Position numbers and translations under genes: made by a program | Assembly (NCBI RefSeq): GCF_000337375.1 | Contig: NZ_AOJG01000003.1 | Coordinates: 246-52,832, forward strand | Direction of reading: 5' to 3' | DNA from: Halorubrum lipolyticum DSM 21995 | Lineage (GTDB): Archaea > Halobacteriota > Halobacteria > Halobacteriales > Haloferacaceae | Length of the DNA stretch: 52,587 nucleotides | Shown: positions 36,988 to 52,587 of the stretch, piece by piece | Position numbering within the stretch: position 1 is the first letter of the stretch | How the letters are laid out: each line of letters begins with the position of its first letter | Notes under the pieces: generated by a model | What the model saw: only the letters and a program-made list of their open reading frames with translations | Databases searched by the model: none | What the model was told of the DNA's origin: nothing

Positions 36988-37052
36988 GGAACAGCGGTCT
37001 CGCCGGGGTAACGGCGGCATTTTTAAGCAGAAATGGAGTTGCGACGATCACT

Positions 37053-37330
37053 AATAAACAAATGTGCGGTGCGGTGGCGCGTGCCACCGAGCGCCCGAAG
37101 GGCGCGAGGTGCACGCGCGAGGGACGCCGCGAACGCCCGGAGGGCGTGAGCGGCGAGGCTGGGGAGGCGTGAGGTGCGGTGCTGTGCGGTCGCGGGGGTG
37201 GGGCTCAAAGGGGCAGCCGTGAGGACGAAGCACGACGACGCAAGCACTGGAAGGAACGAACGAAGTGAGCGACTGAAGCGCACAGCGAGTCGCGCGAGTC
37301 CTCACGGCTGGGGCTTTGGAGATGTTCACC
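37053..37330 (+). ncRNA. Structured repeat element, copy 1 (candidate non-coding RNA)
   Basis: TATA-like AATAAACA (37053-37060) precedes a helix GCGCGTGC/GCACGCGC (37077-37084 with 37111-37118) that encloses hairpin GCGCCC/GGGCGC (37091-37105). A second hairpin (CGCCGC 37125-37130 with GCGGCG 37150-37155, inner ACGCCC/GGGCGT) contains opposed GA dinucleotides. An invariant 30-nt block lies at 37155-37184 and a nearly invariant 48-nt block at 37242-37289. An outer stem pairs CAGCCGTGAGGA (37214-37225) with TCCTCACGGCTG (37299-37310). The tail is GGGGCTTTGGAGATGTTCACC. Copies 2 and 3 keep the pairing with different bases. No CDS fits. It occupies most of the 503-nt gap before gatE. Confidence 0.6.
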
Positions 37331-37401
37331 GCTAGAGCGCTGTCAGGTACTTATGAGCGAACGGCTGGAGACTGAGAACGATTCACCACGACTCCAGCAG
37401 C

Positions 37402-37472
37402 GATCGCTTATAAACAAACCACAGAAACGCGCAATACGTCCGACCCAACCTCAGCAATCACTTATAAACAAC
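37402..37472 (+). repeat. Isolated promoter-like heads of the structured repeat
   Basis: GATCGCTTATAAACAAA (37402-37418) and AATCACTTATAAACAAC (37456-37472) resemble GATCACTAATAAACAAA just before copy 1 (37046-37062). Here no repeat body follows. They lie between copy 1 and the end of gatE. They could be leftover promoters from lost copies or, on the minus strand, T-rich stop signals for gatE. Confidence 0.5.
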
Positions 37473-37490
37473 CCCATCACACCGCAACGT

Positions 37491-39374
37491 CTACGACCGC
37501 TTGCCGATCTCCTCGCGGAGCACGTCGGAGACGACCTCGCCGTCGGCCTTCCCGCGGAGCGCGCCCATCGCCTCGCCCATCAGCCCGGAGAACGCGCCCA
37601 TCCCCTCGGCCTCGATCTGGTCTGCGTTGCGCTCGACGACTTCGACCACCGCCTCCCGGACCTCCTCTTCGCTCACGCCCGACAGCCCGGCCTCCTCGAC
37701 GGCCTCGGCCGCCGACAGCTCGGGACGCTCGGCGAGCGTCGTCAGCACCTCCGGAACGCCCTCCTTCGCGAGGTCGCCGTCCTCGACGAGGTCGAAGAGC
37801 GCGAGGAAGTGGTCGTCGGTGAGATTCCCGACGGGCGCCCCCTCCCGGCGGATCTCCGTCGTCGTCGACTCCAGCGTCGACGCGGCGAAGGTCGGGTCGA
37901 CGCCGCGGTCGACCGCGGTCTCGAACAGGGGGAACCGCTGGCCGAACGCGACCTGCTCGGCGAGGCCGGCGTCGAGCCCGAACTGCTCGGTGTACCGCTC
38001 GGCCTTCTCGTCGAGGAGCTCCGGCCGCTCCACGTCGGAGGGGTCGGGCTCGACCGGCGGCACGTCCGTCTCGGGGTACATCCGCGCGGCGCCCGGCAGG
38101 GGTCGGAGGTAGCGCGTCGTCCCGTCGTCGTTCGCGCCGCGGGTCTCCTCGGGGACGCCCTCGATGGCCGTCTCCGCGCGCTCGGCGGCCGCCTCGATCG
38201 CGAGGTCCGCCGTCTCGGGGTCGGCGGCGACGATGGCGACCGCGTCCCCCTCGCCCGCGCCGACCGCGTCGCGGAGGGCGTCGACCTCCTCGTCCGTGAC
38301 ACCGTAGGCCGGGAGCTCGTCGGTGTGGAAGATGCCGCCCGCGCCGTGGCGCTTCGCGTGGTCCGAGAGCTCGGTGCCGAGCCGGCGGTCCGGCTGGATC
38401 TCGCGCCCGACGAGGCCGTCGAAGCCGAAGAGGGGGACCGCGGTGACCTTCCCGCCCGCGTCGAGCGCGCCGCGGATGACCCCCGACTCGGTGTCGGCGA
38501 AGGTGTCGGTCACGTCCGAGACGTCGCCCACCCTCGCGTCGCGCTCGCGGAGCTCCTCGCGGACGTCGAGCAGCTCGGCCTGCCGGCCGACCTCGCCGCG
38601 GACGATGTCCTCGATCCCCTGGAGGTCCTGCACGCCCTTCACCTCGACGCGGGCGCCGTCGGCGATGGAGACGTTCACGTCCTGTCGGATCGTCCCGAGC
38701 CCGCGCTTGACCGCGCCGGTCGAGCGGAGCAGCATCCCGATGCGCGCGGCGGCCTCGCGGGCGCCCTCGGGGCTCCGGATGTCCGGGCCCGTCCCGATCT
38801 CGACGAGGGGGACGCCGAGCCGGTCGAGCGAGTAGACGACGCCGTCGTCGGTCTCCTCGACGCGCTTGGCCGACTCCTCTTCGAGCATGAGGTCCGCGAC
38901 CGACACCGTCCCCTCGCTCGTCTCGATCTCGCCCGCCTGGCCGAGCAGGATCGAGCGCTGGAACCCGGAGGTGTTCGAGCCGTCGATGACGAGTTTGCGC
39001 ATGACGTGGGCCTGGTCGACGACCGAGATGTCGAGCAGGTCGGCGATCTGCAGGGCCACGGCGAGCGCCTCGTCGTCGACGCGGCGGGGCGGCTCGTCGT
39101 CCTCCTCGACGAGGCAGGTGGTGTCGTACGCGAGGTAGGTGAACTCGCGGTCGACGCGGCTCTCCTCCACGGCGGCGTCGTCGAGTTCGCCGAGTTCGCT
39201 CTTCGTCGGGTGGAGCCGGCGGGCGATCGACCGCTCGGACTCCTCGGGGTCGCGTTCGACGGTCGGGGAGTCGCAGAACAGCTTCGTCGCCGTGTCGAGC
39301 TGCTGGTGGATCTCCAGCCCGGCGACGAGCCCCAGCTCCTCGTAGTCATACTCGGGGGTCGCGTCCGTACTCAT
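37491..39374 (-). CDS. gatE: Glu-tRNA(Gln) amidotransferase subunit GatE
   Basis: 627 residues, the archaeal form. Amidates misacylated Glu-tRNA(Gln) with ammonia from the GatD partner (not in this window). Domains: GatB-like kinase fold with ELGLVAGLEIHQQLDTATKLFC at the N-terminus, RKLVIDGSNTSGFQRSILLGQ, DRLGVPLVEIGTGPDIRSPEGA and TIRQDVNVSI; a GAD insert domain (around 270-400: PLFGFDGLVGREI, AKRHGAGGIFHTDELPAYGV); and a C-terminal helical tail (GMGAFSGLMGEAMGALRGKADGEVVSDVL), the YqeY-like tRNA-binding part. A TATA element (ACTAAAAG) is centred 29 nt upstream of the ATG. It sits between two structured repeat copies on the opposite strand. Confidence 0.96.
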   Translation of the reverse strand: MSTDATPEYDYEELGLVAGLEIHQQLDTATKLFCDSPTVERDPEESERSIARRLHPTKSELGELDDAAVEESRVDREFTYLAYDTTCLVEEDDEPPRRVDDEALAVALQIADLLDISVVDQAHVMRKLVIDGSNTSGFQRSILLGQAGEIETSEGTVSVADLMLEEESAKRVEETDDGVVYSLDRLGVPLVEIGTGPDIRSPEGAREAAARIGMLLRSTGAVKRGLGTIRQDVNVSIADGARVEVKGVQDLQGIEDIVRGEVGRQAELLDVREELRERDARVGDVSDVTDTFADTESGVIRGALDAGGKVTAVPLFGFDGLVGREIQPDRRLGTELSDHAKRHGAGGIFHTDELPAYGVTDEEVDALRDAVGAGEGDAVAIVAADPETADLAIEAAAERAETAIEGVPEETRGANDDGTTRYLRPLPGAARMYPETDVPPVEPDPSDVERPELLDEKAERYTEQFGLDAGLAEQVAFGQRFPLFETAVDRGVDPTFAASTLESTTTEIRREGAPVGNLTDDHFLALFDLVEDGDLAKEGVPEVLTTLAERPELSAAEAVEEAGLSGVSEEEVREAVVEVVERNADQIEAEGMGAFSGLMGEAMGALRGKADGEVVSDVLREEIGKRS

Positions 39375-39451: not shown

Positions 39452-39733
39452 GGTTATAAAGTACAGCTGCGGTGGCGCGCGCCTCCGAGCGGTCGCTGGA
39501 AGCGACCGCGAGGAGCGCGTGCGAGGGAGTCGGTCGCCCTCCGCTTCGCTCCGGGCGACCGACGAGGCTGGGGAGGCGTGAGGTGCGGTGCTGCGCGGGG
39601 TGGGACTCAAAGGGGCAGTCGCGAGGGCAGCGCAGGCGACGTAAGCACTGGAAGGAGCGAACGAAGTGAGCGACTGAAGCGCGCAGCGAGCGTGCGCTGC
39701 CCTCGCGACTGAGGCTTTGGAGGTGGCCTCCAC
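39452..39733 (+). ncRNA. Structured repeat element, copy 2 (candidate non-coding RNA)
   Basis: TATA-like TTATAAA (39454-39460) is followed by the first helix GCGCGCGC/GCGCGTGC (39475-39482 with 39515-39522, one G-U) around hairpin GCGGTCGCT/AGCGACCGC (39489-39509). The second hairpin is GTCGGTCGCCC/GGGCGACCGAC (39529-39563). The 30-nt block identical to copy 1 is at 39564-39593. A perfect 19-bp stem pairs 39616-39634 with 39693-39711, where copy 1 has a different 12-bp stem. The 48-nt loop block at 39643-39690 differs from copy 1 at two positions. The tail CTGAGGCTTTGGAGGT ends in a small hairpin (GGTGG/CCACC). Same orientation as copy 1. Confidence 0.6.
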
Positions 39734-39741
39734 CGATCCGT

Positions 39742-39790
39742 GATCACCGATTTATAAACGAGCAGCTGAGGCTTTGGAGGTGTTCACGAC
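39742..39790 (+). repeat. Duplicated tail and head of the structured repeat
   Basis: The 16-nt tail CTGAGGCTTTGGAGGT occurs at 39709-39724 and again at 39766-39781, here followed by GTTCACGACC as in copy 1's GTTCACC. Between them is a promoter-like GATCACCGATTTATAAACG (39742-39760), like the heads near copy 1. This looks like recombination or loss of the body of another copy. The remainder up to the tRNA (39791-39902) contains no gene. Confidence 0.5.
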
Positions 39791-39902: not shown

Positions 39903-39987
39903 TGCGTGGGACCGGATTTGAACCGGCGGACCTCTACAGGACAGCGCCCTCAACGCTGCGCCGTTGGCCTGGCTTGGCTACCCACGC
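39903..39987 (-). tRNA. tRNA-Leu (anticodon GAG)
   Basis: On the minus strand the 85-nt sequence starts GCGTGGG, pairs with CCCACGC and ends in discriminator A. It has the D arm TAGCCAAGCCAGGCCAACGGC, an anticodon stem CAGCG/CGCTG with loop TTGAGGG (anticodon GAG at loop positions 34-36), a long variable arm (TGTCCTGTAGAGGTCCGC) as in class II tRNA-Leu, and TTCAAATCC in the T loop. No CCA is encoded and no intron is present. It reads CUC/CUU leucine codons. A TATA-like TTTTAATTGGG (minus strand, near 40024-40034) precedes it. Confidence 0.96.
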
Positions 39988-52424: not shown

Positions 52425-52587
52425 ATTTAAACTCGAACGAGGCTGTGGCGCGTGCCGATGAGCGCCCGCAGGGCGCGAGTCGCACGCGCGAGGGAGGAGC
52501 GAGCAGAGAGGGACCTCCGGTCCCTCATGCAGCCGGCGCGCAGCGCCGGCGACGAAGCGAGCGACGAGGCTGGGGAGGCGTGAGGCT
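52425..52587 (+). ncRNA. Structured repeat element, copy 3, cut by the window end
   Basis: TATA-like TTTAAA (52426-52431) precedes the first helix GCGCGTGC/GCACGCGC (52448-52455 with 52482-52489) and hairpin GCGCCC/GGGCGC (52462-52476). The 7/6-nt joining strands keep pairing: GAT faces GTC here, ACC/GGT in copy 1 and TCC/GGA in copy 2. A different second stem region with hairpins GAGGGACC/GGTCCCTC and GCCGGCGC/GCGCCGGC follows. The first 20 nt of the invariant block start at 52566. The 3' half lies outside. Confidence 0.55.

Follow-up and report, generated by a model that had tools for sequence, protein, structure and literature searches.

The window analysed here, a 52,587-nt stretch of the Halorubrum lipolyticum DSM 21995 genome (contig NZ_AOJG01000003.1), carries on either side of a gatE gene two hairpins that share a fold and differ in the sequence of their stems, raising the question of what kind of element they belong to and what the fold is for. 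The original prediction described a paired outer stem in each copy around a nearly invariant loop, and interpreted this combination as a binding site for protein or RNA. The pairing was confirmed in both copies: in copy 2, CAGTCGCGAGGGCAGCGCA (39616-39634) is perfectly complementary to TGCGCTGCCCTCGCGACTG (39693-39711) over 19 bp, and in copy 1, CAGCCGTGAGGA (37214-37225) pairs with TCCTCACGGCTG (37299-37310) over 12 bp. Both stems extend outward over a 3x3 GGG/RGG internal loop into a CAAAG/CTTTG helix, and the 266-nt folds beat all 200 dinucleotide shuffles (z -5.1 and z -4.4). The near-invariance of the loop holds between these two copies, in which a 54-nt loop block is 94% identical; across the family, however, the loop varies and is sometimes flipped (inverted in 10 of 188 copies).

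Each hairpin turned out to be the 3' domain, H3, of a modular intergenic Halorubrum element of ~270 nt. Comparison of copies gave the following parts: the head GCGGTGGCGCG, hairpins H1 and H2, the core GACGAGGCTGGGGAGGCGTGAGG, H3, and one to three tail units ~57 nt apart, most of them with TTTATAA (Table 1). A TTATAAA motif is found 12-17 nt ahead of the head in about 60 of 159 heads. Some copies are devoid of H3, others contain additional hairpin modules, and internal deletions also occur. A further core is present in the genome 89 bp beyond copy 3.

Table 1. Coordinates of the element copies found in the window, their parts and the flanking genes.
Feature	Position	Strand	Remarks
Copy 2, whole element	~39469..39728	+	Head, H1, H2, core, H3 and first tail unit; bounds set against copies from 34 further Halorubrum genomes
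TTATAAA motif	39454..39460	+	15 nt before copy-2 head
Hairpin H1, copy 2	39476..39522	+	Helix, tandem GA/GA, variable inner stem
Hairpin H2, copy 2	39529..39563	+	GTCGGTCGCCC..GGGCGACCGAC
Core, copy 2	39561..39583	+	Conserved 23 nt, GACGAGGCTGGGGAGGCGTGAGG
Hairpin H3, copy 2	39608..39719	+	CAAAG/CTTTG, GGG/AGG 3x3 loop, 19-bp stem, structured loop
H3 part originally noted, copy 2	39616-39711	+	
H3 loop block, copy 2	39643..39690	+	Helices closing on GAGCGA-AC-GAA-GT-GAGCGA
Tail, copy 2	39709..39785	+	Two GCTTTGGAGGTG units at 57-nt spacing; TTTATAA (39751-39757) lies between them
Copy 1, whole element	~37071..37327	+	
Core, copy 1	37152..37174	+	1 mismatch
Hairpin H3, copy 1	37206..37318	+	
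Copy 3, head to core	52442..52587	+	Core 52563-52585; cut by window end
gatE	37491-39374	minus	Flanking gene; named by reading of sequence
tRNA-Leu	39903-39987	minus	Flanking gene; adjoins copy 2

Several irregular copies were observed. At the copy-1 site (locus L184) and at loci L183 and L201, the copies contain inserted runs of perfect palindromes of 19-23 nt, which have triloops and stems of unrelated sequence and give the impression that hairpins are arising anew. Locus L191 has four 35-nt copies of the H2 3' arm plus core in tandem where the contig ends, which may reflect local amplification or an artefact of assembly. Tail units spaced otherwise than by 57 nt are usually 48, 51, 54, 63, 66 or 69 nt apart, nearly always a multiple of 3; despite this spacing, coding tail repeats were rejected, as the window's own units contain in-frame stops.

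The original prediction also held that bases differing between the copies change on both arms, and that copies broken on one arm only would speak against the fold. Across 57 aligned H3 sequences from Halorubrum and other genera, folded with RNAalifold, the structure comprises 26 pairs, 20 of which display compensatory double changes; double-change cells number 306 versus 106 in shuffles, which bears out the first statement, and breakage of one arm alone was not seen. Standard pairs fill 96.7% of the pair cells (75.4% in shuffles), and pairing falls to 43% or less when the partners are slid, a control that is partly favoured, as this alignment also yielded the structure; the margin over the shuffles is still very large. 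Furthermore, purine mismatch motifs are kept (GGG/GGG, tandem GA and GNA triloops), the motifs of the H3 loop survive across genera, and noncanonical motifs of H3 change in step, GACG with GCGAG and GCAG with GCAAG. The outer 4 bp of H1 covary as well (CTCC/GGAG, CTGC/GCAG, CGAC/GTCG, CGAT/ATCG and CGGT/ACCG), all 103 copies that were parsed keep the 5' GA of its tandem GA/GA, and its loops are mostly triloops (61 of 81). The H2 stem, in 136 copies, displays 994 Watson-Crick pairs, 13 G.T and 9 A.C. The helices of the element are thus maintained by compensatory change.

Imperfect pairs indicate which strand folds, as a G.T mismatch in the plus strand is an A.C mismatch in the minus strand. Pooled over the element, 96 G.T and 34 A.C were counted (H1 27:6, H2 13:9, H3 56:19; p 5e-8), and leaving out position 2 of H3, whose 3' arm is similar there to a tail unit, gave 73:32 (p 8e-5); both p-values are optimistic, since the copies are related. 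This excess of G.T suggests that the plus strand is the one that folds, whether as RNA or as single-stranded DNA (ssDNA).

The core occurs 106 times in the H. lipolyticum genome (up to 3 mismatches) and 11 to 157 times in each of 34 other Halorubrum genomes (up to 2 mismatches), while the reversed control had 0 matches in both searches. The element, which is restricted to this genus, is present in about 100 copies per Halorubrum genome, mostly intergenic and with a preference for convergent gene ends. With gaps typed by our own gene caller at 114 loci, 42 of 139 convergent, 46 of 376 tandem and 11 of 133 divergent gaps hold an element (convergent versus divergent, p 6e-6); since presence of a copy was the basis on which loci were selected, only the comparison between gap types is meaningful. 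Among 100 chromosomal copies, only 29 have an opposite-strand gene on their 5' side, and the one complete chromosome listed (G026) displays no replichore-scale strand pattern of copies.

The position of a copy can be stable while its stems are not. In the gap between gatE and tRNA-Leu, the full element with its core is found in 25 of 30 Halorubrum species, always in plus orientation, and one further species has a reduced form only (L210). H3 identity is 0.685 between orthologues at this site, 0.712 between random paralogues of the H. lipolyticum genome, and 0.69 between these paralogues and the gatE-site copies of other species; gatE itself is mostly 90-94% identical among the species compared. 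Orthologous H3 hairpins are therefore no more alike than paralogous ones, indicating that stems or modules are replaced wholesale, probably by recombination between copies, although repeated reinsertion at one site could also give this pattern. The copy-1 site is occupied in only a subset of relatives; when the site was checked in the relatives for an empty form, none was found, and a different sequence was there. In most relatives lacking copy 1, the gap orthologous to window positions 36988-37490, which separates gatE from the regulator gene upstream, holds another conserved stretch of ~600 nt that is probably coding. TTTATAA flanks many copies on both sides, but it also occurs inside the tail units.

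H3 by itself is distributed more widely. Its covariance model matches 223 of 292 haloarchaeal genomes, in 60 of 77 genera, with up to 12 candidates scored per genome and a rough calibration of the model; when 30 low-hit genomes were rescored with 121 candidates, most contained exactly one H3. A single-copy H3 matches 145 plasmid records, and the full chromosomal form has weak matches to four plasmids only and no phage match. The annotation of 27 plasmid copies was read from PLSDB gene tables, which are not complete. About 20 of these copies are located upstream of an RPA/SSB-like gene, at a distance of some 300-600 nt from its start; such genes are annotated as DNA-binding protein, replication factor A or OB-fold protein, or as a hypothetical protein that matches these in size and location. 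Of the other copies, 3 adjoin a TFB gene and the rest adjoin other genes or none. Ten of the plasmid DNA-binding proteins align with a mean column identity of 69%, and an RPA/SSB OB domain was detected in the four proteins scanned (E 1e-14 to 1e-17), in matches that fall short of the full-length cutoffs. Thus, in most haloarchaeal genera H3 alone is a low-copy feature, notably on plasmids beside an RPA/SSB-like gene. Where H3 and such a gene adjoin, the gene points away from the hairpin and has as its template the strand that folds.

The stretch between H3 and the gene on the plasmids is a conserved structured region that ends in H3 (z -5.8). The region, of about 550 nt (L395:5562-6130 and relatives), is about 88% identical over 33 plasmid loci from different genera and lies upstream of an RPA/SSB-like or a TFB gene. 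It was matched in 292 of 391 haloarchaeal genomes by a DNA search, in which weaker matches may cover short pieces only. Where one plasmid has separated copies, these agree in strand in 11 of 15 cases, against an expectation of 4.9 (p 6e-4); this shared orientation may stem from duplication. The conserved region contains 16 G.T and 14 A.C mismatches, too little variation to tell the folding strand.

We compared both forms with known families. For the element or the plasmid structured region, no Rfam 15 family reaches its curated score, the best match by E-value being isrG with 14.2 bits against a cutoff of 100, and a known RNA family was therefore rejected; an origin in phages or other viruses was likewise rejected, as no phage record matches the element. 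A description of the repeat or of the plasmid region was not found in the open-access literature, and an account in a subscription journal is possible. By these searches, the folded repeat family is one previously unlisted in Rfam or in the literature retrieved.

The explanation we favour, with a confidence just short of even, is that the hairpin is a plasmid element that folds as a single strand, a derived mosaic of which was dispersed through Halorubrum chromosomes. While plasmid DNA is single-stranded, during transfer, establishment or replication, H3 would fold and be recognised by a protein, and it would act in cis on the neighbouring ssDNA-binding-protein gene. The chromosomal copies of Halorubrum would be kept alike by recombination between copies, and would be maintained because a protein that spreads or binds them depends on the fold for recognition. 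For these copies a mosaic repeat, derived and dispersed, with BIME/BOX-like behaviour is favoured because they do not show the promoter geometry of an opposite-strand gene located 5'; the lack of this plasmid geometry also counts against the explanation as a whole, as does a plasmid region too conserved to tell its folding strand. Further points against it are that neither a transposase nor a target duplication nor an empty site came to light, and that duplication may account for the shared orientation of plasmid copies. A bolder version, suggested by analogy and in our opinion rather doubtful, is that conjugative or mobile plasmids of haloarchaea carry a class-wide, strand-polar ssDNA folding control region of ~550 nt that would drive or prime early synthesis of a plasmid RPA/SSB protein and TFB in a new host, as the archaeal counterpart of the bacterial leading-region ssDNA promoter, and that Halorubrum amplified its hairpin into about 100 chromosomal mosaic elements.

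A serious rival, which we nonetheless hold to be unlikely, is a multicopy structured noncoding RNA transcribed from the TTATAAA in front, with a loop that binds a protein. The plus-strand excess of G.T, the U.G found in 21 of 57 cells of H3 pair 44-103, the noncanonical motifs that change in step and the spacing of TTATAAA from the heads are all consistent with it; against it, half of the heads lack TTATAAA, and with TTATAAA as the TATA box the transcript would begin some 26 nt after it, within the first helix; moreover, the copies prefer gene 3' ends, and no Rfam family matches. The original interpretation of a conserved loop on a variable stem as a binding site thus divides in two: a constrained fold is strongly supported, while a simple RNA with a binding loop is disfavoured, since the loop can be inverted, stems are swapped between species, and plasmids carry this hairpin in low copy beside an ssDNA-binding-protein gene.

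The dispersal of about 100 intergenic copies may instead reflect a selfish, MITE- or REP-like repeat moved as a hairpin by a transposase encoded elsewhere, the fold being kept because the transposase must recognise it. Sites that differ between species, such as that of copy 1, agree with this proposal, as do the internal deletions, inserted modules and extra perfect palindromes and the near absence of the full form from plasmids and phages. Nevertheless, positions can be stable genus-wide, as at gatE, and the copies inspected revealed neither paired terminal inverted repeats nor a target duplication nor a linked transposase; we consider this proposal improbable. Chromosomal, intergenic copies enriched in convergent gaps would also suit a DNA element that organises the chromosome or acts at gene ends, the kind of role put forward for BIME/REP gyrase sites or terminators. 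This is the least probable of the explanations: the one complete chromosome displays no replichore-scale strand pattern, the copies have no U-tract, and such a role needs no conservation of tail and loop.

An element with neither a curated RNA family nor a retrieved paper is thus present, as a hairpin, in most of the sampled haloarchaeal genera. Plasmid transfer and establishment in haloarchaea are poorly understood, and a structured region ahead of an ssDNA-binding-protein gene offers an experimental handle, the position of the hairpin on plasmids making a role in transfer or replication testable. Furthermore, the Halorubrum copies constitute an unusual case in which a fold is conserved while its sequence is swapped wholesale among about 100 loci.

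Among known systems, BIME/REP in enterobacteria and BOX in pneumococcus consist of tens to hundreds of intergenic modular palindromes at gene 3' ends, with shuffled modules. The Halorubrum element shares this multiplicity, modularity and position; however, its fold is larger and more elaborate (about 270 nt, three hairpins and conserved purine loops), and its homologous hairpin is a low-copy plasmid feature. BIME/REP repeats are further marked by a REP consensus and by dependence on a RAYT (Y1) transposase; no linked transposase was noticed for the Halorubrum element. The recurrent G-quadruplex repeats of Methanomicrobiaceae are also interspersed, intergenic and G-rich, with hairpin potential (PMC8044849), but they are a short G4 and C-tract motif of methanogens, unrelated in sequence. 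Halovirus HF2, a virus of Halorubrum, has intergenic repeats of about 58 bp with TATA boxes (PMC8707807), which recall the 57-bp tail units with TTTATAA; these are viral promoters of different sequence, and were rejected for that reason. On conjugative plasmids, Frpo/ssi ssDNA promoters occupy the transferred strand ahead of ssb genes (PMC11541004). The plasmid-type H3 likewise precedes an RPA/SSB-like gene in 20 of 27 copies (a TFB gene adjoins 3 more) and folds on the template strand, and its several copies on one plasmid, mostly on one strand, may be a further likeness or a product of duplication, whereas the chromosomal copies mostly lack an opposite-strand gene start just 5' (29 of 100), gatE being one that happens to fit. 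The plasmid-type H3 differs in being archaeal, in its much larger structured region and in having no bacterial -35/-10; by analogy, then, the plasmid arrangement resembles Frpo/ssi, a resemblance and not a membership.
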